Source: Thermus aquaticus
GTDB taxonomy: Bacteria > Deinococcota > Deinococci > Deinococcales > Thermaceae
DNA: 61,650 bases
Assembly (NCBI RefSeq): GCF_001280255.1
Contig: NZ_LHCI01000106.1
Location: forward strand, 1,951,600 to 2,013,249
Direction: 5' to 3'
Positions 1,868-37,203 of this stretch are shown here, piece after piece. Each line of letters opens with the position of its first letter. Positions within the stretch are counted from its first letter, which is position 1. Both the position numbers and the translations under genes were made by a program. Below the pieces are notes generated by a model. That model saw only the letters and a list, made by a program, of their open reading frames with translations. It made no database searches and was not told where the DNA came from.

Positions 1868-3044
1868 TGGGGAAGCGCAAGCGGGGCAACGGGGAGGGCA
1901 CCATCGTGCGCCGCCGCGATGGGCGTTGGATGGGCCAGCTGATGGTGGGCTACGGCCCCGATGGCAAGCCCAGGAGGCGCACGGTCTACGGCAGGACCCG
2001 GCAGGAGGTGGCGGCCAAGCTGGCCGAACTCGCCGCCCAGCACCACAAGGGCCTCCTCCCCTCCCCCGAGGCCATCACCGTGCGGGAGTGGGCCTCGAGG
2101 TGGCTTGAGCGGAAGGCCCGGAAGGTGCGGCCCAAGACCCTCCTTCTCTACTGGGAGGAGCTGGCCTACGCCCTTCCCTCCCTCGAGGACCCCCAGGCCA
2201 AAGACCCCTTGGGGAGCATGCGCCTTCAGGCCGTCCAGCCCGCCCACATTCGGGCCCTCCTGGACGGCCTGGCCGAGCGGGGCCTCTCCGTGCGCACGGT
2301 GAAGAAGGTGCGGGAGAAGCTTCACGCCCTCTTTGAGGAGGCCCTGAGCCTAGAGCTGGTGGCCCGAAACCCCGTGGCCCCGGTGAAGGTGAAGGCCCCC
2401 GCCCCGGAGAAGACGGGGAGGGCCCTGGAACCCGGAGAAGCGGATGCCCTCCTCGAGGCCCTGGATGCCTACCCTGACCCCCGCATGGGCCTCGCCCTGC
2501 ACCTTGGGCTGGCGTTGGGCCTCCGGAGGGTGGAGATTCTGGGGCTCCAATGGGAGGACCTGGACATCGAGGAAGGAGTCCTCACCATCCGAAGGGCCTG
2601 GGTAGCCGTGGAGGGAAGGGGGGAGATTTCGGACCCCAAAACGCCGAACGCGTACCGGACCCTTCCTATCCCCCACTCCACCCTGGTGCGGCTCAGGGCC
2701 TACCGGGCCTGGTGGGAGGGCACCTTCGGGGGCCTGGGGACTCCCTGGGTCTTCCCCGGCACCAAGGACCCCTCGTGGCCCTAAACCCCAACAGCCCCAA
2801 CCACGCCCTGAGGCGGATAACCCAACGCCTGGGCCTGGAACGGGTGCGGGTCCATGACCTCCGGCACAGCTACGGCACCCTCTGCTTGGCGCGAAGAGTC
2901 CCCCTCGAGGTGGTATCGGAGCGCTTGGGGCACGCCAACCCCACCATCACCCTCAACCGCTACCGCCACGTCCTAGAGGAGGAGCGCCGGGGCTGGGTCA
3001 TGAACCTCGAGGAGCTGGTGAAGCCTAACCGGGCCAAGGCCTGA
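1867..3044 (+). pseudogene. Tyrosine recombinase (phage-type integrase), split by a one-base frameshift
   Basis: Read through a single missing base near 2775-2780, the product is about 392 residues. It has an N-terminal arm-binding segment (GNGEGTIVRRRDGRW), a core-binding domain around residues 60-170 and a catalytic domain. The first frame contains the Arg motif GLALGLRRVEILGLQW and stops at TAA 2782. The second frame holds HDLRHSYGT and LGHANPTITLNRY with the nucleophile Tyr. Adding one C to the CCC run near 2770 restores one frame. Gene and tRNA-Ala are arranged with the integrase 3' end next to the tRNA 3' end, as in elements that use a tRNA as attB. A sequencing error in the homopolymer cannot be excluded. 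Confidence 0.8.
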
Positions 3045-3121: not shown

Positions 3122-3196
3122 TGGTGGAGCGGGGGGGATTTGAACCCCCGACCTCCCGCTTGCAAGGCGGGTGCTCTCCCTCTGAGCTACCGCCCC
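3122..3196 (-). tRNA. tRNA-Ala(UGC)
   Basis: The reverse strand folds into a full cloverleaf of 75 bases including an encoded CCA. The acceptor stem is GGGGCGG with CCGCTCC and carries G3:U70, the hallmark of alanine tRNAs. The D stem is GCTC/GAGC. The anticodon stem is CCCGC/GCGGG with loop CTTGCAA, giving anticodon UGC. The T stem is GGGGG/CCCCC with loop TTCAAAT. Its 3' end faces the integrase, consistent with use as an attachment site. Confidence 0.97.
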
Positions 3197-6927: not shown

Positions 6928-8027
6928 AGCGCTTGGTGATCCTGGGTTCCACGGGCTCCATCGGCCGGCAGGCCCTGGAGGTGGCCCTCTGGCGGGGCTA
7001 CCGGGTGGTGGGCCTGGCGGCGGGGAAGAACCTGGAGGTCCTCGCGGAGCAGATCGCCCGCTTCCGGCCCCTTCTGGTGGCGGCCGAGGAGGGGCTACAC
7101 CGGGAGCTTAAGGCGCGCTTTCCCTGGCTGAAGCTGGCCTCCGCCGAAGAGGTGGCGGCCATGGAGGCCGAGGTGGCCGTGGCCGCCATCCCGGGCCTCG
7201 CCGGGCTACCCCCCACCCGGGTGGCGGTGCGGACGGGCAAGCGGGTGGCCCTGGCCAACAAGGAGGCCATGGTGGCGGCGGGGCCCCTCCTGTGGCAGGA
7301 GGTGGAAAAGGGCGGGGCCGAGATCCTCCCCGTGGACTCGGAGCACTCGGCCCTCTTCCAGGCCCTCCTGGGGGAAAGCAAGGAGGAGGTGGCCGAGCTC
7401 ATCCTCACCGCAAGCGGGGGGCCCTTCCTAAGAGGCCCGGAGGACCTCTCCCAGGTAACCCCCGAGATGGCCCTGAACCACCCCCGCTGGCGCATGGGGC
7501 CCAAGGTCACCGTGGACTCGGCCACCCTCTTCAACAAGGGGCTGGAGGTCCTCGAGGCCAAGGAGCTCTTCCGCCTTCCCCTGGAGAAGATCCGGGTCCT
7601 GGTCCACCCCCAGGCCTACGTGCACGGCCTGGTGCGCTTTGTGGACGGAAGCTTAAAGGCCCAGCTGGGCCCCACGGACATGCGCCTTCCCATCCAGTAC
7701 GCCCTCACCTACCCCCACCGGGCGGAAACCCCCTTAAAGGACCTCCCCATCCCCGGGGTCCTGGAGTTTCTGGAGCCCGACCTAAAGCGCTTCCCCGCCC
7801 TGGCCGTGGCCTACGAGGCGGGGAAGCGGGGCGGCGTGGCCCAGGTGGCCGTCTCCGCCGCCGACGAGGTGGCCGTGGAGGCCTTTTTGGCGGGCAGGAT
7901 CCCCTTCACCCGCATCCCGGAAGTGTTGGCCAAGGTCCTGGAAAACACCCCTTCCGTCCCCCTAACATGGGAGAACCTCTTCGCCGTGGACGCCTGGGCC
8001 CGGGAAGAGGCCAAGAGGTGGGCATGA
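6924..8027 (+). CDS. dxr: 1-deoxy-D-xylulose 5-phosphate reductoisomerase
   Basis: The 367-residue enzyme catalyses the first committed step of the methylerythritol phosphate route to isoprenoids. The NADPH-binding [13 protein letters not shown] is at residues 8-20. The substrate and metal site residues lie in [12 protein letters not shown] and [19 protein letters not shown]. Length is slightly below the usual 380-400 residues, with a compact C-terminal bundle. It is coupled by overlap to cdsA before it and to the site-2 protease gene after it, a common cdsA-dxr-rseP order in bacteria. Confidence 0.96.
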
Positions 8028-28656: not shown

Positions 28657-28691
28657 CGCCCGGGAAAGGCTTGGGTCAGCATAGGCCAAAC

Positions 28692-30935
28692 ATGGCCCTG
28701 TCTTATCCTGCCATAGCCCTGGCCTCCTTCCTGGTGGGGCTTTTGGCGGGCTTTTTGGGCTACAGCGACCCCTACATCCTCCCCTGGTTCATGATCGCCG
28801 TGGCCGTGGTGGCCAGCGTCTACGGCCTCTCCTGGGGGCTTCTGGCCGCCCTCTTCTCCACCCTGGTCCTCCTCCTTTTCCCGGGGTTTAACCCGATGGC
28901 CCTGGCCCTCCTCCTCCTCTCCGCCCTGCTGGCCCACCAGGTGGGGGAAAGCCTGCGGCGGGCTCACCGCCGCGCTAAAGCCCTCGCCAAAAGCCAGCGC
29001 CTGATCGCCGAGGCCCTCGAGGCCCTCCCCCAGGCCCCAAACCGGGAGGCCCTCCTCAAGAGCCTCCCCGAGCGCCTCCTTGCCCTGGGGGAGGGGGGGC
29101 ACGTGGGGGTCTGGGTGCCCGCCCCCGAAGGGGGGTTTAGCCTTCTCGCCACCCACCCGCCCATGAGCCTGGCCTGGATCCCGGATAGCGGCGTGGTGGG
29201 CCGGGCCTTCCGGGAGGGCAAGCCCCTCTACATCCCCGATGTGCGGCGGGAGCCCGGCTACATCCCGGACCCCTCCATCCCCACCCTGGCCGAGCTGGCC
29301 CTGCCCCTTTGGGAAAGGGGCGAGGTGGTGGCGGTGCTGAACCTGGAGCGCCCAAAGCCCTTCCTCCCCGAGGAGGTGGAGGGCCTCACCCGCTTCGCCC
29401 AGGCGGTGGGCCTCCACCTGGACCGCCTGGCGGACCTGGAGGAGAGGACCCTCCTTTCTGGGCTTTCCGAAAGGCTCCAAAGCGCCGGGACCAAAGAAGA
29501 GGCGGCGGGGAGGGCCCTGGCCTTCCTGGTGCCCGCCTTGGGCCTCCAGGCCGGGGCCCTCTGGGAGGCCCGAGGAGCGCGGATGCAGGCCCTCGCCCAC
29601 CACGGGGTGCGGGAAGCAAGCCTCCTCCGGGTGCTGGAGGAGGGCCTGGCCTTTGGGGTGGGCCTCGCCTGGCGGGTGTACGAGACGGGAAGCCCCCTCT
29701 TCACCGCCCGCTACGCCGAGGAAAGCCAGGGGGTTCCCGCCCTCCAGGCCCTGGGCTGGCGCACCTTCGCCGCCCTCCCCCTGCCCTCCCCGGGAAGCCC
29801 CAGGAGCCGCCGGGTCCTGGTCCTGGGCGCGCCGGAGGCCCGGCCCTGGCGCAGGGCCGAGGTGGAGAGCCTCCTCCTTTGTAGCCGCACCCTGGCCCTG
29901 GCCCTGGAACGCCTGGCCGAGAAGGCGCGGCACCAGGCGGTGAACCGCCTCTTCCAGGAGCTTTTGCAAAAGCCCCTGGAGGCCCTTTACCAGGAGGTCC
30001 TGGAGGAAGCCGTCCGGCAGGTGCCGGGGGCGGAGGCGGGGAGCCTCCTCGTGCTGGAGGAGGGGGTCTACCGCTTCCGGGCGGCGGTGGGGTACGACCT
30101 GGAAGGGCTTAAGGGGGTAGCCTTCCGGCCGGAGGACCAGCTCCTCTGGTACGGCCTGGGAGAGGAGGAGGCCCAGAGGGGCGAGCCCCGGATCCTCAGC
30201 GCCGAGGCCCGCCCCATCGCCGAGATCAGCCACAAGACCGCCCCCCCGGAGGTCATGGACCGCGCGGGCAGGGCCACGGAGATCCAGGCCAACCTCTGCC
30301 TCCCCATCCCCTACCAGGGCCAGGTGCTGGCCTACCTGAACCTGGACAACCTCCACGACCCCCGGGCCTTTGGCGAGGACAGCCTCGAGGCCGCCCGCTT
30401 CTTCGCCACCCCCCTGGCCGCCCTCCTCCACGAGGCCAGGACCCGGAGGCTTCTGGAGGAGGCCGCCCTCACCGATCCCCTCACGGGCCTTCCCAACCGC
30501 CGGGCCTTTGAACGGCTCTTTTTGGAGGAGCTGAAGCGGGCCGAGCGCTACGGTTACCCCCTCTCCCTGGCCGTCTTGGACCTGAAGGGGTTCAAGGCCA
30601 TCAACGACCGGCTAGGCCACGCCGCCGGGGACCTGGCCCTCGTCCGCGTGGCCCAGGTCCTTTCCAAGGAGCGGCGCAACGGGGACCGGGTCTTCCGCTG
30701 GGGCGGGGACGAGTTCGCCGCCCTCTTCCCCCACACGGGCAAGGAGGGGGCCGTAAGGGCCGCCTTCCGCTACGCCCGGGCCATTGAGGGCATCTGCCTG
30801 GAAGGCCTCTGCCTGGGGGTCAACATCGGCCTCGCCACCTATCCCGAGGACGGGACGACCACGGACGAGCTCCTATCCGCCGCCGACACCCGCATGTACC
30901 AGGCCAAGGCCCAGGGGCTTTCTGTCTTGGCCTAA
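28692..30935 (+). CDS. Membrane GAF-GGDEF diguanylate cyclase
   Basis: The 747-residue protein begins with about four membrane helices (1-85). Three GAF-like regions follow (around 100-245, 260-400 and 420-570), then a GGDEF domain. The active site RWGGDEFAAL is intact (motif near 671-675). An allosteric RxxD site (RNGD) lies exactly five residues before it, so product inhibition is likely. It should make cyclic-di-GMP in response to a ligand of the GAF domains. ATG 28692 is preferred; a TTG 21 bases upstream has a weak binding site and is possible. It lies upstream of the tandem RNA leader. Confidence 0.88.
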   Translation: MALSYPAIALASFLVGLLAGFLGYSDPYILPWFMIAVAVVASVYGLSWGLLAALFSTLVLLLFPGFNPMALALLLLSALLAHQVGESLRRAHRRAKALAKSQRLIAEALEALPQAPNREALLKSLPERLLALGEGGHVGVWVPAPEGGFSLLATHPPMSLAWIPDSGVVGRAFREGKPLYIPDVRREPGYIPDPSIPTLAELALPLWERGEVVAVLNLERPKPFLPEEVEGLTRFAQAVGLHLDRLADLEERTLLSGLSERLQSAGTKEEAAGRALAFLVPALGLQAGALWEARGARMQALAHHGVREASLLRVLEEGLAFGVGLAWRVYETGSPLFTARYAEESQGVPALQALGWRTFAALPLPSPGSPRSRRVLVLGAPEARPWRRAEVESLLLCSRTLALALERLAEKARHQAVNRLFQELLQKPLEALYQEVLEEAVRQVPGAEAGSLLVLEEGVYRFRAAVGYDLEGLKGVAFRPEDQLLWYGLGEEEAQRGEPRILSAEARPIAEISHKTAPPEVMDRAGRATEIQANLCLPIPYQGQVLAYLNLDNLHDPRAFGEDSLEAARFFATPLAALLHEARTRRLLEEAALTDPLTGLPNRRAFERLFLEELKRAERYGYPLSLAVLDLKGFKAINDRLGHAAGDLALVRVAQVLSKERRNGDRVFRWGGDEFAALFPHTGKEGAVRAAFRYARAIEGICLEGLCLGVNIGLATYPEDGTTTDELLSAADTRMYQAKAQGLSVLA

Positions 30936-30942
30936 ACGCCCC

Positions 30943-30971
30943 TTGCCAAAACCCGCCCGCAGGTGTACCCT
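30943..30971 (+). promoter_or_regulatory. Promoter of the tandem RNA leader
   Basis: TTGCCA (30943-30948) and TACCCT (30966-30971) are 17 bases apart. Transcription would start near 30978, right at the first hairpin of the leader (GGGAC/GTCCC, 30979-30994). Confidence 0.55.
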
Positions 30972-31002
30972 TGAGCTAGGGACGCTGAAGTCCCCAAAGG
31001 CA

Positions 31003-31077
31003 CCTCGGAGGCGACGAAGCCTGTCCTGCAATCTGGGCGCCTGGGACAGGTGGAGCCAGTGGCGCAACCGGCCGAGG
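31003..31077 (+). ncRNA. Candidate riboswitch aptamer, copy 1 (unrecognised class)
   Basis: A three-way junction can be drawn. P1 is CCTCGG (31003-31008) with CCGAGG (31072-31077). P2 is CCTGTCC (31020-31026) with GGACAGG (31044-31050). P3 is CCAGT (31056-31060) with ACCGG (31067-31071), with one A-C mismatch. The P2 loop holds GGGCGCC (31035-31041), which can pair with GGCGC in the P3 loop, giving a kissing contact. Junction 1/2 starts AGGCGA. A 23-base block at 31052-31074 is identical in copy 2 at 31205-31227. P1 and P2 sequences differ between copies but keep pairing. Confidence 0.65.
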
Positions 31078-31116
31078 GCGGGCAAAGCCAAACCTTTTCC
31101 TTGCTTTCCCTCTGTC

Positions 31117-31150
31117 GGCCAGGCGCCTAGCCTGGCCCTAAGGCTTTTTA
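31117..31150 (+). promoter_or_regulatory. Terminator-like hairpin between the two aptamers
   Basis: A perfect 8-bp stem, GGCCAGGC (31117-31124) with GCCTGGCC (31130-31137), is followed after 7 bases by TTTTT (31145-31149). A second stem, GCCCTAA (31135-31141) with TTAGGGC (31148-31154), overlaps it and also takes up the first bases of P1 of copy 2. The region could act as an attenuator controlled by copy 1 or as an alternative fold of copy 2. Confidence 0.4.
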
Positions 31151-31152
31151 GG

Positions 31153-31232
31153 GCGTTCGGAGGCGAGGAACCGTGATACCCAAGATGGGCGCCAAGGGAC
31201 ACGGGGAGCCAGTGGCGCAACCGGCCGGACGC
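31153..31232 (+). ncRNA. Candidate riboswitch aptamer, copy 2 (unrecognised class)
   Basis: The layout is the same as in copy 1. P1 is GCGTTCGG (31153-31160) with CCGGACGC (31225-31232). P2 is CCGTG (31171-31175) with CACGG (31200-31204). The P2 loop again holds GGGCGCC (31187-31193), junction 1/2 again starts AGGCGA, and the block 31205-31227 is identical to copy 1. Compensatory changes in P1 and P2 against fixed junction and loop bases are the pattern expected of a ligand-binding RNA. The closeness of three cyclic-di-GMP enzymes makes that molecule the first ligand to test. Confidence 0.65.
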
Positions 31233-31257
31233 TATAGCACGGCTATACCGCCGACCC

Positions 31258-31283
31258 TTGCGCCACCTCCCCCAAGGAGGTGG
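31258..31283 (+). promoter_or_regulatory. Expression platform: hairpin masking the ribosome binding site
   Basis: CCACCTCC (31263-31270) pairs with GGAGGTGG (31276-31283) and hides the AGGAGG site of the gene at 31286. TTGCGCCAC (31258-31266) is a perfect 9-base complement of GTGGCGCAA (31212-31220) in the P3 loop of aptamer 2. The two pairings share CCAC and exclude each other. A formed aptamer would leave the hairpin closed; an unformed one would open it. Confidence 0.6.
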
Positions 31284-31285
31284 GC

Positions 31286-31642
31286 ATGCGGACGTGGATC
31301 CTAGCCCTCTTGATCCTCGTAGGGGGCGTGGCCCCGGCCCAGAGCGCCGCCAGCGTCGGCGTGGGCATCCGCATCCCCGCCGTGGTGGGGCTCCGCCTGG
31401 CGGAGGTGGAAGGGCCTATGGTGTCCGCACTGGAGCTTGGGCCCGGGGTCCACACCCTCAGGCTCGTGGCCAACACCCAGTGGGAGCTTAGGGTGGAGGT
31501 GGAGGGCCAGGCCCTTCTGGCCAACCTGTCCCTTCAGGCGGGCACCCACGTCCTCTCGGGCCGGGGCAGGCTGACCCTCACCCTGGAGGTGCCCCCGGGG
31601 AGCCGGGTGCGCCTCAAGGTGGCCCTGGCGGGGATTTCTTAG
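31286..31642 (+). CDS. Small exported protein controlled by the tandem RNA leader
   Basis: The 118-residue product has a signal peptide (MRTWILALLILVGGVAPAQS). A beta-rich domain follows with alternating hydrophobic residues (VGVGIRIPAVVGLRLAEVEG, LRVEVEGQALLANLSLQAG). I recognise no family; the size and pattern could suit a surface or matrix component. AGGAGG lies 5 bases before the ATG, inside the masking hairpin. The gene is 41 bases upstream of the GGDEF-EAL gene, so the leader could also affect that gene by read-through. Confidence 0.65.
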   Translation: MRTWILALLILVGGVAPAQSAASVGVGIRIPAVVGLRLAEVEGPMVSALELGPGVHTLRLVANTQWELRVEVEGQALLANLSLQAGTHVLSGRGRLTLTLEVPPGSRVRLKVALAGIS

Positions 31643-31683
31643 AAACCACACCCCCTTAGGTGTAAACTAGAGGGGATTCGGCC

Positions 31684-34257
31684 ATGGACTGGACCCGAAC
31701 TCCCTCACGGTCCTCGCCCGTCCTGCCCCTCCTGCGGCAGGGCCTTCAGGGGCTTCCCGAGGCCCTCAGGGCCCTGGCCAAGGCCCTACAGGCCCACCGC
31801 GCCTACCTCTTCCGCTTGGAGGAGCGGGACGGGCTTTGGTACGCCTCCCAGCTGGCCGAGTGGGCGGGCCCCCACGTCACGCCCCAGATCCAGAACCCCA
31901 GCCTGCAACGCCTGCCCGTGCGGGAAGCGGGCTACGGCCGCTGGCTGGAGGCCTTTCTGCGGGGCGAAGCCATCGGAGGCGCGGTAAGGACCTTCCCCGA
32001 GGAGGAAAGGCCCCTTCTGGAGGCCCAGGAGATCCAAAGCCTCCTGGTGGTCCCCATCCGGGTGGAGGGGCGGCTCTGGGGCTTTCTCGGAGTGGACGAC
32101 TGCGAAAGGGAGCGGGCCTTCACCCTCGAGGAGGAAGCCCTTCTCCGGGAGGTGGCTGAGGCCCTGGCCCGCACCCTGGACCTCTTTGAGGTCCACCGCT
32201 TCACGGAACGCCTCTTGGAGCTTTCCCCCTTCTACGTGGCCCGCATGAGCCCAGAAGGCGGACGCCTATGGGCCAACCTCGCCTTTAAAAAGGCCTTCCC
32301 CCAGGGGCTTCCCCTGCCCTTGGAGGCGCCCCTGGCCCAGCCGGGGCGGCCGGTGACGGCCACCACCGCTGGGGAGGCCCCCGCCGAGTGGACCCTGGTG
32401 GCCGTGCCCGGCCCGGGAGGGGAGGTCCTAGAGGTTCTGGCCTTCGGCCTGGACCTTCGGGAGCGCCTCCTGGCCCAGGAGCGGGAGGCCCGCTGGAGTG
32501 CCTTCCGCAAAAACCTCCTCCGGGTTTACGAGACCCTGATGGCCGAGGGGTTTTCCGAGTCCGTCTTCGGCCTCATCCTCGAGGCCGCCCTGGACACGGT
32601 GCCCGCCGCCCAGGCGGGGAGCGTGGCCGTCCTCAAGGAGGACGGGTACTACCACTTCGTGGCCGCCAAAGGGTACGACCTGGAGGCCCTGCGCCAGGTC
32701 CGGCTCCACCCGGAAGAGCCTCTCTCCCTCACCGGGCACAGGGAGGCCCAGGTCTTCACCCAGAAGGACCTCAAGCGCTTCAACCGGCGGCTGGACCCCA
32801 AGCGGAGAAGGGTGATGGAGGAGGCGGGAAGGGTGCGGGAGATCCAGGCCGTTCTGGCGGTGCCCGTCTACCTCTCCGGCGAGCGCAAGGCCTTCTTGTA
32901 CCTGGACAACCTGGAGAGGGAGGACGCCTTCACCCCCCTGGACCTGGAGCTGGCCCAGGCCTTTGCCAGCCAGCTGGGCCTCCTCCTCCGGAGGATGGAG
33001 CTGGAGGGGAGGCTGACCTACCTGGCCTTCCACGACCCCCTGACCGGCCTACCCAACCGCCTCTTCTTCCTGGAGAAGCTGGCCCAGGCCCTAAAAGAGG
33101 AGCCCAGGGTGGCCGTCTTGTACCTGGACCTGGACGGGCTGAAGCTGGTCAACGACCTGGAGGGCCACGCCACGGGGGACGAGGTCATCCGGACCGTGGC
33201 CGCCCGCCTGCGGGCCGCCGTCAGGCCCCGGGACCTGGTGGCCCGGCAGGGCGGGGACGAGTTCCTCGTTCTCCTTGCGGGGCTCCGCAAGCCGGAGGAG
33301 GCCGTCCAGGTGGCGGAGCGGCTTCTAGAGGTGGTGCGCCTGCCCCTGCCCCTGGGCGGGCGGGTCTTTCACCTCACCACCTCCTTGGGCATCGCCCTGG
33401 GGGAGCCCGGCCTCACCCCGGGGGAGCTTCTGGCCCGGGCCGACCTGGCCCTTTACCGGGCCAAGGGCGAGGGCAAGGACCGGCTGGCCTTTTACGAGCC
33501 CGGGCTCCAGGAGGCCCTGCGCCGGGAGATGGCCCTGGTGGAGGCCCTGCGGGAGGCCCTGGCCGGGGATGAGGGCGAGCTCACCCTCCTCTACCAGCCC
33601 ATCGTGGACCTGGCCACGGGGGCCCCTGTGGCCCTCGAGGCCCTGATCCGCTGGCCCAAGGCCCCCCCCGGCGAGTTCATCCCCCTGGCGGAGCGGCACC
33701 GCCTCATGCCGGAGCTGGGGGCGTGGGTCCTGCGCCGGGCCTGCCGGGAGCAGGCCCGCCACGGCCTGCCCGTGCACGTGAACGTGAGCCCCCAGGAGCT
33801 CCTCCACCCCGGCTACCCCGGCCTGGTGGCCCAGGTCCTGGAGGAGACCGGATGCCCCCCCAGGGCCCTGGTCCTGGAAATCACGGAAACCGCCCTCATC
33901 CCCGACGAGAGGGGGCGGGACGCCACCCTGACCGTGCGCATCCTGCGGGAGCTGGGAGTCAGGGTCTTCCTGGACGACTTCGGAAGCGGCTACTCCAGCC
34001 TGGAGCGCCTGGCGGCCCTTCCCGTGGACGGCCTCAAGCTGGGCCAGGCCTTCACGCAGGCCCTGGGGAACCCTCCGGACCCCCAAAGCCCCGCCGCCCG
34101 GCTGGTGGCCGCCGTCTTGGCCCTGGCCCAAGCCCTGGGGCTCGCCGCCGTGGCCGAGGGCATAGAGGGCGAGGCCACCCTGGCCTACCTGCGCCGCCTG
34201 GGGTTCACCTTGGGACAGGGCTTCCTCTTTGGCCGCCCCGCCCCTTTGGGGGTATAG
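31684..34257 (+). CDS. GAF-GGDEF-EAL cyclic-di-GMP signalling protein
   Basis: The 857-residue soluble protein has an N-terminal GAF domain (about 10-165), a short PAS-like stretch (170-260), a second GAF domain (270-440), GGDEF (440-605) and EAL (615-857). RQGGDEFLVL (near 523-527) is intact with an RPRD inhibitory site five residues before it. EAL motifs ALEALIRW, ITETALIP and DDFGSGYSS are intact, so both synthesis and breakdown of cyclic-di-GMP are possible. The GAF domains probably decide which dominates. A GAGGGG binding site lies upstream of the ATG, and TAAACT at 31663 could be a separate -10 box. Confidence 0.9.
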   Translation: MDWTRTPSRSSPVLPLLRQGLQGLPEALRALAKALQAHRAYLFRLEERDGLWYASQLAEWAGPHVTPQIQNPSLQRLPVREAGYGRWLEAFLRGEAIGGAVRTFPEEERPLLEAQEIQSLLVVPIRVEGRLWGFLGVDDCERERAFTLEEEALLREVAEALARTLDLFEVHRFTERLLELSPFYVARMSPEGGRLWANLAFKKAFPQGLPLPLEAPLAQPGRPVTATTAGEAPAEWTLVAVPGPGGEVLEVLAFGLDLRERLLAQEREARWSAFRKNLLRVYETLMAEGFSESVFGLILEAALDTVPAAQAGSVAVLKEDGYYHFVAAKGYDLEALRQVRLHPEEPLSLTGHREAQVFTQKDLKRFNRRLDPKRRRVMEEAGRVREIQAVLAVPVYLSGERKAFLYLDNLEREDAFTPLDLELAQAFASQLGLLLRRMELEGRLTYLAFHDPLTGLPNRLFFLEKLAQALKEEPRVAVLYLDLDGLKLVNDLEGHATGDEVIRTVAARLRAAVRPRDLVARQGGDEFLVLLAGLRKPEEAVQVAERLLEVVRLPLPLGGRVFHLTTSLGIALGEPGLTPGELLARADLALYRAKGEGKDRLAFYEPGLQEALRREMALVEALREALAGDEGELTLLYQPIVDLATGAPVALEALIRWPKAPPGEFIPLAERHRLMPELGAWVLRRACREQARHGLPVHVNVSPQELLHPGYPGLVAQVLEETGCPPRALVLEITETALIPDERGRDATLTVRILRELGVRVFLDDFGSGYSSLERLAALPVDGLKLGQAFTQALGNPPDPQSPAARLVAAVLALAQALGLAAVAEGIEGEATLAYLRRLGFTLGQGFLFGRPAPLGV

Positions 34258-34269
34258 TGGGGTAGGAGA

Positions 34270-37203
34270 ATGCGCCTCAGCGCCGCAGGCAAGGTCGCCC
34301 TAGCCTACGCCCTCTTTTCCCTCCTCTGGATCCTGGGAAACGATCGGCTCCTTCTGGCCCTCTTTCCCAAGGCCGCAACCCTCACCCTCTGGCAAACGGT
34401 TAAAGGGTTCCTCTTCGTGGCCCTCTCTGGGCTCCTGGTCTACCTCCTGGCCCTCAGGGAAACCCGGGCGGAAGAGGCCAAAACCAGAGCCGAAAGGGCC
34501 TCCGCCCGCCGCCTCCAGGCCCTTCTGGAAAGCGGCAGGGAGCTCGTCTACCTCCTGGACGAAAAGGGGCGGATCCGCTACGCCTCCCCCAACGTGAGGA
34601 AGGTGCTGGGCTACCTGCCCTGGGAGGACCCGGGGCCGGGGGCGCCTATTTTGGACTACGTTCACCCTGAAGACAGGCTTCTCGCCGAGGCGGCCCTGCA
34701 GGACCTCCTCCGCCACCCGGGGACCACCCTGGAGTACCGCCTGCGCGTCCTGGACAAGGAGGGCGGGGTGCGGGCGGTGCGGGTGTGGGGCAGAAACCTC
34801 CTCCAGGACGAGGCGGTTAGGGCCATCGTCCTCAAGGTCCAGGACGTCACCGAGCTGGTCAGGCACCAGGACCGCCTGGAGAGCGTCCTTGACGCCCTCC
34901 CCGGTATGGTCTTCCAGGTACAGGTGGCGGAGGGAGAAGACCCCGCCTACGCCTCCCTCTACTACATCAGCCCCAAGCAAGCCGCGGCCCTCCTGGGCTA
35001 CCCGGCGGAAGCCCTCCTCGCCGACCCCGCCTTCTATTTTTCCCAGGTCCATCCCGAGGACCGGGAGGGCCTCGAGGCCGCCCTACGCCAAGCGGTGGCG
35101 GAACCCGGCCGGGTTCAGGTCCACACCTACCGCTTCTGGCACGGGAAAAAGGAGGCCTGGGTTTGGCTTCGGGACACCCTCGTCTACCACCCCGAAACCC
35201 GCTTTCTCACCGGGTACACCTACGAGGTCACGGAAGAGGTGGAGTCGGAGCGCCGCTTTCGCGCCCTGGCGGAGACCGCCCCGGCCCTCATCCTCATGTG
35301 GCAGGCGGAAGACCCCACCCGGCCCGAGTCCGCCAGGCTGGTCTACGCCAACCCCGAGGCCCTGCGCCTCACCGGGTACACCCTGGAAGAACTCCAGGCC
35401 AGGCCCATCTGGGAGTTCGTCCACCCCCAGGACCGGGAGCTGGTGCGAAGCCGCGGGCTGGCCCGGCTTAGGGGGCAAACCCCCCCGAGCCGCTACGCCT
35501 TCCGCATCCTGACCAAGGGAGGGGAGGTCCTGTGGCTGGACTACTCCGCCGCCCGGGTGGAGCTTGGGGGGAAACCCACCGTCTTGGGCGTGGGCCTGGA
35601 CATCACCGAGGCCAAGGAACGGGAGCGGACCCTGGAGGCCTTCGCGCGCCTCAGCCTGGCCCTGAGGGAAAGCGAAGACCTCCGGGAGATGATGGAAAAG
35701 GGACTGGACACCGTGATGGACCTCCTGGGGGCCGGGGCGGGAAGCGTCCTCATGTACGAAGGCACCCCTCCCCAGGTCCGGGTGGCCGCGGACCGGGGGT
35801 GGATGGCCCACCTCCCCCCTCCCTCCAACCCCCTGGAGGCGCGGAGCCTGGTGGCCCAGGCCCTGGCGGGGGAGGTCGTCCTCTCCCCCGACCCCAAGAC
35901 TGATCCCCGGGTCCGGGAAGCGGCCCGCCCCTTTATCCCCGAGGGCTGGGGGGTCCTGGCCCTCCCGCTCCTGGCGGGCCGGGAGGCGGTGGGCGCCCTT
36001 TTCCTTTCCTGGCCCCGGGCCCAGCTTCCCGGCCCTAGGGAGGTGGAGCGGACCCAGATCCTGGGCGAGGTCCTGGGCAACGCCCTGCGCCGGGGTAGTC
36101 TGCGGGCAAAGCTTGCCCAGCGGGTGGCCCAGCTGGAGGCCCTCCGGGCCGTGGACCAGGCCATCGCCGCCTCTTTGGACCTGGGGCCCACCCTGGAAGT
36201 CTTTCTGGCCCAGGTCCTCCGCCTGCCCCTGGACGCGGTGGCCTTCTTCCTCTACTGCAAGGAGGAGGGAGGACTGGTCCTGGAGGCGGCCAAGGGGTTC
36301 CTCTCCCCCAAGGAAGCCCTGCCGAAGCGCATCCCCCTGGGCGTGGGCCACGTGGGCCAGGCGGCCCTGGAGGGGCAGGTGGTCCACGTCCAGAACCTGG
36401 CCCAAAACCCGGGCACCCACCCGGAGTTCACCCTCAGGGAAGGCCTGGTCTCCGAGCGGGCCTATCCCCTCTTCGCCAAGGGCAGGCTCCTGGGGGTCCT
36501 GGCGGCCTTCACCCGCAAGCCCTGGGACCTGACCCCCGAGGAGGAGGAGTTCCTGGAGGCCCTGGTGGGCCAGGGGACCATCGCCCTGGACAACGCCCTC
36601 ACCTTCCAAGCCCTGCAGAAGACCCAGCGGGAGCTGGAGGCCGCCTACGACCTCACCCTATGGGGCTGGGCCAAGGCGGTGGAACTGCGGGACCAGGAGA
36701 CCGCCGGCCACACGGAGCGGGTCACGGCGCTCACCCTGCGCCTGGCCCGGGCCCTGGGGGTACCCGAGGAGGACCTGGAGCACATCCGGCGGGGAGCCAT
36801 CCTCCACGACGTGGGCAAGCTGGCCATCCCCGACCACATCCTCCTCAAGCCGGGCCCCCTCACCGAGGAGGAGTGGGCGGTTATGAAAAGGCACCCCGTC
36901 TACGCCTACGAGTGGCTTTCCGGCATCCCCTTCCTCAGGAAGGCCCTGGACATCCCCTACGCCCACCACGAGCGCTGGGACGGCTCCGGCTACCCCCGGG
37001 GCCTGAAAGGGGAGGCCATTCCCCTTTCCGCCCGCATCTTCGCCGTGGTGGACGTCTACGATGCCCTGACCTCCGACCGCCCCTACCGCAAGGCCTGGCC
37101 TAAGGAGAAGGCCCTGGCCTACCTTCGGGAGCAGGCGGGCCGGCAGTTTGACCCCCAGGTGGTGGCGACCTTCCTGCGCCTGGTGGAGGAAGAGGGCCTT
37201 TAG
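34270..37203 (+). CDS. Membrane PAS-GAF-HD-GYP phosphodiesterase
   Basis: The 977-residue protein has two N-terminal membrane helices (1-65). Three PAS domains follow (about 75-200, 205-325, 330-455), then two GAF domains (460-610, 620-780) and a C-terminal HD-GYP domain. The HD pair is in LHDVGKLAIPDHIL (near 844-857) and the GYP part in HHERWDGSGYPRGLKG (near 899-914). HD-GYP enzymes hydrolyse cyclic-di-GMP fully to GMP. TATAGT at 34254-34259 overlaps the end of the upstream gene and may be its own promoter. With the two upstream genes it forms a local write-and-erase set. Confidence 0.9.
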   Translation: MRLSAAGKVALAYALFSLLWILGNDRLLLALFPKAATLTLWQTVKGFLFVALSGLLVYLLALRETRAEEAKTRAERASARRLQALLESGRELVYLLDEKGRIRYASPNVRKVLGYLPWEDPGPGAPILDYVHPEDRLLAEAALQDLLRHPGTTLEYRLRVLDKEGGVRAVRVWGRNLLQDEAVRAIVLKVQDVTELVRHQDRLESVLDALPGMVFQVQVAEGEDPAYASLYYISPKQAAALLGYPAEALLADPAFYFSQVHPEDREGLEAALRQAVAEPGRVQVHTYRFWHGKKEAWVWLRDTLVYHPETRFLTGYTYEVTEEVESERRFRALAETAPALILMWQAEDPTRPESARLVYANPEALRLTGYTLEELQARPIWEFVHPQDRELVRSRGLARLRGQTPPSRYAFRILTKGGEVLWLDYSAARVELGGKPTVLGVGLDITEAKERERTLEAFARLSLALRESEDLREMMEKGLDTVMDLLGAGAGSVLMYEGTPPQVRVAADRGWMAHLPPPSNPLEARSLVAQALAGEVVLSPDPKTDPRVREAARPFIPEGWGVLALPLLAGREAVGALFLSWPRAQLPGPREVERTQILGEVLGNALRRGSLRAKLAQRVAQLEALRAVDQAIAASLDLGPTLEVFLAQVLRLPLDAVAFFLYCKEEGGLVLEAAKGFLSPKEALPKRIPLGVGHVGQAALEGQVVHVQNLAQNPGTHPEFTLREGLVSERAYPLFAKGRLLGVLAAFTRKPWDLTPEEEEFLEALVGQGTIALDNALTFQALQKTQRELEAAYDLTLWGWAKAVELRDQETAGHTERVTALTLRLARALGVPEEDLEHIRRGAILHDVGKLAIPDHILLKPGPLTEEEWAVMKRHPVYAYEWLSGIPFLRKALDIPYAHHERWDGSGYPRGLKGEAIPLSARIFAVVDVYDALTSDRPYRKAWPKEKALAYLREQAGRQFDPQVVATFLRLVEEEGL

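Follow-up and report, generated by a model that had tools for sequence, protein, structure and literature searches.

The stretch of Thermus aquaticus DNA considered here (61,650 nucleotides of contig NZ_LHCI01000106.1, positions 1,951,600 to 2,013,249, referred to as the window) contains, between genes for enzymes that make and degrade cyclic di-GMP (c-di-GMP), a leader in which two RNA aptamers lie in tandem ahead of a gene for a small secreted protein; features are on the forward (+) strand unless stated otherwise. Aptamer 1 (30998-31082) and aptamer 2 (31150-31235) are followed by an expression platform, comprising hairpins that close or free a Shine-Dalgarno (SD) site, and then by the controlled gene (31286-31642), an open reading frame of 118 amino acids (aa) from the ATG at 31286; its mechanical start is GTG 31280, giving 120 aa. 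Upstream lies a gene for a GAF-GGDEF protein (28671-30935) and downstream are genes for a GAF-GGDEF-EAL protein (31684-34257), possibly co-transcribed with the controlled gene, and a PAS-GAF-HD-GYP-type protein (34270-37203). Domains were assigned with Pfam (HD_5 for the last, whose HH-ERWDGSGYP motif was read from the translation), so that the claim of an initial, sequence-only reading of this DNA that c-di-GMP genes flank the RNA holds. On the strength of covariance-model matches and folding calculations we consider it probable that this leader is a tandem c-di-GMP class II riboswitch that would turn translation off by closing the SD site.

In a cmscan search against Rfam 15, with E-values computed over the whole window, both copies match the riboswitch family RF01786 along the full model (1-84 of 84), aptamer 1 scoring 71.9 bits (E 3.2e-14) and aptamer 2 scoring 61.6 bits (E 2.6e-11), where the gathering score is 53.5 bits; both matches are far beyond chance. 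The class is thus a known one and the expected ligand c-di-GMP: judged from these matches, the window RNA is a tandem pair of c-di-GMP class II aptamers, both of which would be expected to bind c-di-GMP selectively. The sequence-only reading had proposed a tandem ligand-binding RNA, as the Rfam matches bear out, with c-di-GMP as first candidate, a choice that agrees with the class of both copies. Its assignment to an unrecognised class is overturned by the same search; the consensus it had compared was probably that of class I. The c-di-GMP-II class was defined in 2010.

The sequence elements reported in that reading are present exactly as described. The junction start AGGCGA occurs at 31009 and 31161, GGGCGCC at 31035 and 31187, and a 23-base block, GGAGCCAGTGGCGCAACCGGCCG, common to both copies, at 31052 and 31205. 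P1 is formed by CCTCGG (31003) and CCGAGG (31072) in copy 1 and by GCGTTCGG (31153) and CCGGACGC (31225) in copy 2, and P2 by CCTGTCC (31020) and GGACAGG (31044) and by CCGTG (31171) and CACGG (31200), respectively, the sequences of both stems being unlike between copies with pairing kept in each. The proposed kissing contact GCGCC:GGCGC can form in both copies, and it corresponds to the loop-tail pseudoknot of the c-di-GMP-II class. The proposed three-way junction fares less well, since its stems stand but a simple junction is not quite right: the Rfam model, to whose consensus both copies were aligned, is one nested stack of P1, a 3-bp GGC/GCC helix and P2 plus a conserved single-stranded 3' tail, and the contact assigned to a P3 loop sits in this tail. 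Like the model, both copies have the 3' tail AGUGGYGCAACCGG (AGUGGCGCAACCGG in the window alignments) and a loop, GGGC-RCC in the model and GGGCGCC here, that pairs with tail GGYGC. They differ from it in the first base of the UGA junction, where copy 1 has C and copy 2 has G, and in having GCGCC:GGCGC for the GCAC:GUGC pseudoknot. Both deviations are inside the range found in relatives, and loci from other genera (L065, L067, L069-L074; loci other than the window are numbered with the prefix L) have GCACC:GGUGC, a compensatory change relative to GCGCC:GGCGC.

The platform that follows aptamer 2 holds two competing hairpins. In hairpin A the anti-anti-SD 5' strand within the aptamer, GGGGAG-CCA-GTGGCGCAA (31203-31220), pairs with the 3' strand TTGCGCCACCTCCCC (31258-31272), which includes the anti-SD strand and is kept in L025, L028 and L030; written as the helix, GGGGAG-CCA-GUGGCGCAA is paired with UUGCGCCACCUCCCC. 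The region 31203-31274 folds with -41.9 kcal/mol (z -5.6), and none of 200 shuffles does as well. Hairpin B is the anti-SD hairpin CCACCTCC-CCCAA-GGAGGTGG over the ribosome-binding site (31263-31283), in which CCACCUCC (31263-31270) pairs with GGAGGUGG (31276-31283) and so covers the SD site AAGGAGGTG (31274-31282); its energy over 31256-31288 is -19.3 kcal/mol (z -3.7), again equalled by 0 of 200 shuffles. Other leaders can form hairpin B with changed letters, CCACCUCUCCC/GGGAGGUGG in L025, GCUCCCC/GGGGAGC in L029 and CGCCCC/GGGGGCG in L027. Folding of aptamer 2 excludes hairpin A, and hairpin B is then possible.

The proposed mechanism follows this competition. At low c-di-GMP the aptamer 2 3' strand (31203-31220) would pair with 31258-31272 and hold the anti-SD strand away, leaving the SD site (31274-31282) open and the gene translated; with c-di-GMP bound, aptamer 2 would keep 31203-31220 for itself and free 31263-31270 (CCACCTCC), which would close over 31276-31283 (GGAGGTGG) and stop translation. 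Aptamer 1 appears to have a competitor of its own. Its 3' strand CCGGCCGAGGG (31068-31078) can pair, instead of with its own P1 partner, with the linker strand CCCTCTGTCGG (31108-31118), identified by sequence comparison and duplex energy and overlapping a hairpin, H1, between the aptamers, so that the pairing of CCCUCUGUCGG (31108-31118) with 31068-31078 competes against both P1 and H1, and 31108-31118 would trade between the P1 3' strand and H1. The duplex of 31068-31078 with the linker is worth -12.5 kcal/mol, a value at least equalled by 13 of 300 shuffled linkers. Nine leaders, those of the window and of 8 relatives, other genera of the family included, have such a competing strand; the letters vary on both sides (GAGGG/CCCUC, GAGGU/ACCUC, GAGA/UCUC, ACCGACC/GGUCGGU) and in 7 of the 9 the energy is matched by no more than 13 of 300 shuffled linkers. 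Given this competing strand, full closure probably needs both aptamers to be occupied, in which case the response to c-di-GMP would be steeper and more digital.

In order to gauge switching, the energetic cost of opening the SD site at 65 C was computed for the unconstrained ensemble and for one in which the aptamer is folded, with 60 shuffled linkers as controls. The window leader in full requires 2.7 kcal/mol when free, 5.2 once aptamer 2 is folded and 9.1 once both aptamers are; in a trimmed version, folding aptamer 2 raises the cost from 2.4 to 8.3 kcal/mol (+5.9; 0/60 shuffled linkers). Comparable shifts are obtained for other trimmed leaders of tandem type, L030 (+5.1 kcal/mol), L028 (+5.5) and L027 (+6.9), each with 0/60, and L025 (+3.9, 1/60), so that closure exceeds at least 59 of 60 controls in five of six leaders, a set that includes L030, in which the same platform follows a single, hybrid aptamer. 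Together, the opening energies and the trimmed-leader shifts predict an OFF switch that is at its strongest when both aptamers are occupied and that is set among genes for c-di-GMP-making and -degrading enzymes.

Several points weigh against this interpretation. The sixth tandem leader, L029, gives only +0.1 kcal/mol, matched by 32 of 60 shuffles, and no switch is computed. The calculation takes no account of kinetics, of Mg2+ or of the energy contributed by the pseudoknot itself, its 65 C parameters are extrapolated and, several of the leaders being near relatives, the tests are not fully independent. Moreover, covariation cannot prove the anti-anti-SD helix, as its aptamer strand is kept invariant by ligand binding.

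It is unlikely, in our judgement, that the tandem acts instead as an ON switch or through transcription (termination or antitermination at H1), in the way class II operates in C. difficile (PMC11477304). H1 itself, GGCCAGGC-GCCTA-GCCTGGCC (31117-31137), is recognised as a fold and by a motif, AGGC-N-CC(C/T)A-GCCTGG, kept in Thermus and at loci belonging to other genera within the family, and a T-run (31145-31149) lies a few bases behind it. That run, however, does not adjoin the hairpin, and L065, L067 and L027 have lost it while retaining the hairpins; a terminator scan of 30900-31750 found no intrinsic terminator, and the SD calculation goes toward OFF in five of the six tandem leaders. H1 was therefore rejected as an intrinsic terminator, the scan having returned no terminator-like site and the T-run not being conserved; it is taken as part of the coupling between aptamers 1 and 2. 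A second hairpin, H2 (CCCTAA/TTAGGG, 31136-31153), abuts aptamer 2 P1, and its stem is retained, with a variable loop, in L025-L029, L065 and L067. In both L066 and L068 a single c-di-GMP-II aptamer precedes the AGGCACCCAGCCTGG hairpin that lies, as H1, between the tandem copies, the L068 aptamer heading a gene judged by eye to be metallophosphoesterase-like.

Also in favour of ON control is that Thermus single-copy leaders compute that way. From free to folded, the opening energy of such leaders ahead of a secreted-protein operon changes by -1.4 kcal/mol in L027 (0/60 controls as low), -3.2 in L025 (3/60; less certain, only one P1 pair being kept in that run), -4.2 in L032 (3/60), -2.8 in L028 (5/60), -0.8 in L031, from the T. 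aquaticus genome itself (5/60), and -0.7 in L035 (not significant). L038, left out of the trimmed set since its aptamer was poorly assigned by the finder, behaves oppositely to the other single-copy leaders in the full-leader calculation (3.0 to 4.5). The ON prediction for single-copy leaders is weaker than the OFF prediction for tandem leaders. In C. difficile (PMC11477304) the aptamer class is the same and the targets are surface structures (a pilin operon, adhesins), but there class II is a transcriptional ON device, with OFF control left to class I, whereas for Thermus the calculation gives translational OFF for tandem leaders and a lean to ON for single-copy ones, both of class II.

Tandem translational OFF control remains our preferred interpretation, and tandems of this class recur in the phylum. 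With a cutoff of E 0.001, RF01786 matches occur in 13 of 27 genomes from Thermus and, across the phylum, in 77 of 111; counted among the listed covariance matches, there are 28 doublets in 25 genomes of the phylum, with start-to-start distances of 136-223 bases. Tandem c-di-GMP-II riboswitches have been published (59 doublets and 9 triplets; PMC9481103), and tandem c-di-GMP riboswitches are reported to be enriched in Deinococcota (PMC12452182). With these precedents and counts the window arrangement is an ordinary instance. The published tandems (PMC9481103) likewise place two aptamers of the same class in one leader with a secreted or surface protein gene downstream, but they come mostly from Paraclostridium and precede COG4932 genes. 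A triple tandem from Bacillus thuringiensis (PMC4759541) also repeats c-di-GMP aptamers within one leader, differing in that it has three copies of class I, an unrelated fold.

We think it very improbable that one or both window aptamers are relics without regulatory function. The element is missing, at E 0.001, from 14 of the 27 Thermus genomes, and some relatives (L026, L030, L034, L027) have recombined or decayed copies, as such an explanation would have it; in the window, however, the platform is intact and neither copy has lost the conserved core, P1, P2 or the pseudoknot. Hybrid-looking aptamers are seen at L030 (about 7893-7990), L026 (about 2075-2150, reverse strand) and L034 (about 7600-7690, reverse strand), in which one copy's 5' half is joined, in the conserved core, to another's 3' half and platform; in the L030 and L026 hybrids P1 is down to 2-4 pairs. 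At L027 (6220-6290) the first aptamer is decayed, with its pseudoknot now GGACCCCC:GGGGGUCC and the conserved GCAACCGG tail lost, and is perhaps a ligand-independent relic.

There is similarly little chance that the window aptamers belong to the c-di-GMP-II clan yet have altered ligand specificity, as the GAG or GCG variants do. Such variant families share Rfam clan CL00127 (they are named in PMC12452182), but the canonical family scores best at both copies and GGDEF, EAL and HD-GYP genes adjoin the locus; RF01786 is the top clan member and neither c-di-GMP-II-GAG nor -GCG is best-scoring at either site, lower-scoring matches within the clan being left out of the scan output. The sequence-only reading was correct that the glycine and c-di-GMP-I consensus do not fit, as neither the glycine tandem nor c-di-GMP-I gives a covariance-model match at the gathering score in the window or, with the cutoff loosened to E 10, within 30700-31500. 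Weak matches to mir-621, mir-341 and RAGATH, far below their gathering scores, were rejected, the mir-621 match, on the minus strand, arising from the anti-anti-SD inverted repeat. That the RNA forms a new class, as the earlier reader proposed, has next to no probability when both copies match a curated family at full length and that family recurs in the phylum at the frequency given above.

The T. aquaticus genome has a third c-di-GMP-II aptamer, in single copy, at C106:1366220-1366306 (locus L031, C106:1358000-1374000), where the leader heads a four-gene secreted operon coding for a 203-aa secreted protein and for proteins of 255, 200 and 819 aa. The model of the 255-aa second product (pLDDT 84) matches in fold the WxL-interacting protein (E 6e-12) and the archaic pilus chaperone CsuC (E 4e-10), and looks like a two-Ig-domain chaperone. 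The 203-aa protein, encoded on the minus strand at L031 7592-8203, and its relatives have an internal NRxQWTV and terminate in an ITLN-x-x-LTSP-like motif, reminiscent of WxL domains; no Pfam match was obtained for them, even at E 10. Upstream of the single-copy promoter a direct repeat like TTTCACACGGCTTTCACAC is conserved in L025, L027, L028, L031, L032, L035 and L038, and is possibly a transcription-factor site.

One class may act with opposite signs in one cell, the tandem leader shutting off a small secreted protein and the single-copy leader activating a secreted, pilus-like operon, with the sign set only by the platform and platforms swapped by recombination between conserved cores (L026, L030); this we offer tentatively, at somewhat below even chances. 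The aptamer class and tandem arrangement are already known, and it is the predicted opposite switching within one genome that would be new. Tandem and single-copy arrangements are adjacent in L025, L027 and L028. In L076 (about 246-400) the P1 3' strand of a single c-di-GMP-II aptamer itself holds an SD-like GGGAGG, and by its sequence this aptamer would be a direct OFF switch. A 2024 study of PilF describes c-di-GMP effectors in Thermus thermophilus as so far unknown (PMC11731258). With c-di-GMP-II aptamers in nearly half of the searched Thermus genomes, mostly ahead of secreted-protein genes where the context was read, these leaders are candidate RNA targets of c-di-GMP in the genus.

At the 5' end of the window leader a possible -10 element, TACCCT (30966-30971), was read from the sequence on weak evidence; TA-rich hexamers occupy the equivalent place in related leaders, and a sigma-70 consensus scan left the leader promoter unmatched. 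It is followed by a 5'-terminal hairpin, GGGAC/GTCCC (30979-30994), with counterparts in L025, L028 and L029 that differ in letters (GGGAGC/GCTCCC, GGGGC/GCCCC). The controlled protein matches no Pfam or NCBIfam family, as the 118- or 120-aa form, and a peptide-pattern search of the genome contigs with the latter found no relative; the structure model of the 120-aa form is of low confidence (pLDDT 66), with no significant fold match. Its profile similarity to the 203-aa proteins (E 1.7e-5) takes in the signal peptide plus no more than about 15 other residues and is for that reason not relied on. Relatives of the 118-aa protein do lie behind other tandem leaders. A long gene similar in size and start to the one downstream is present in L030 and not in L025, L027 or L028, and is thus no fixed part of the locus. 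Elsewhere in the window Rfam identifies a tRNA gene at 3125-3196 on the minus strand (74.3 bits).
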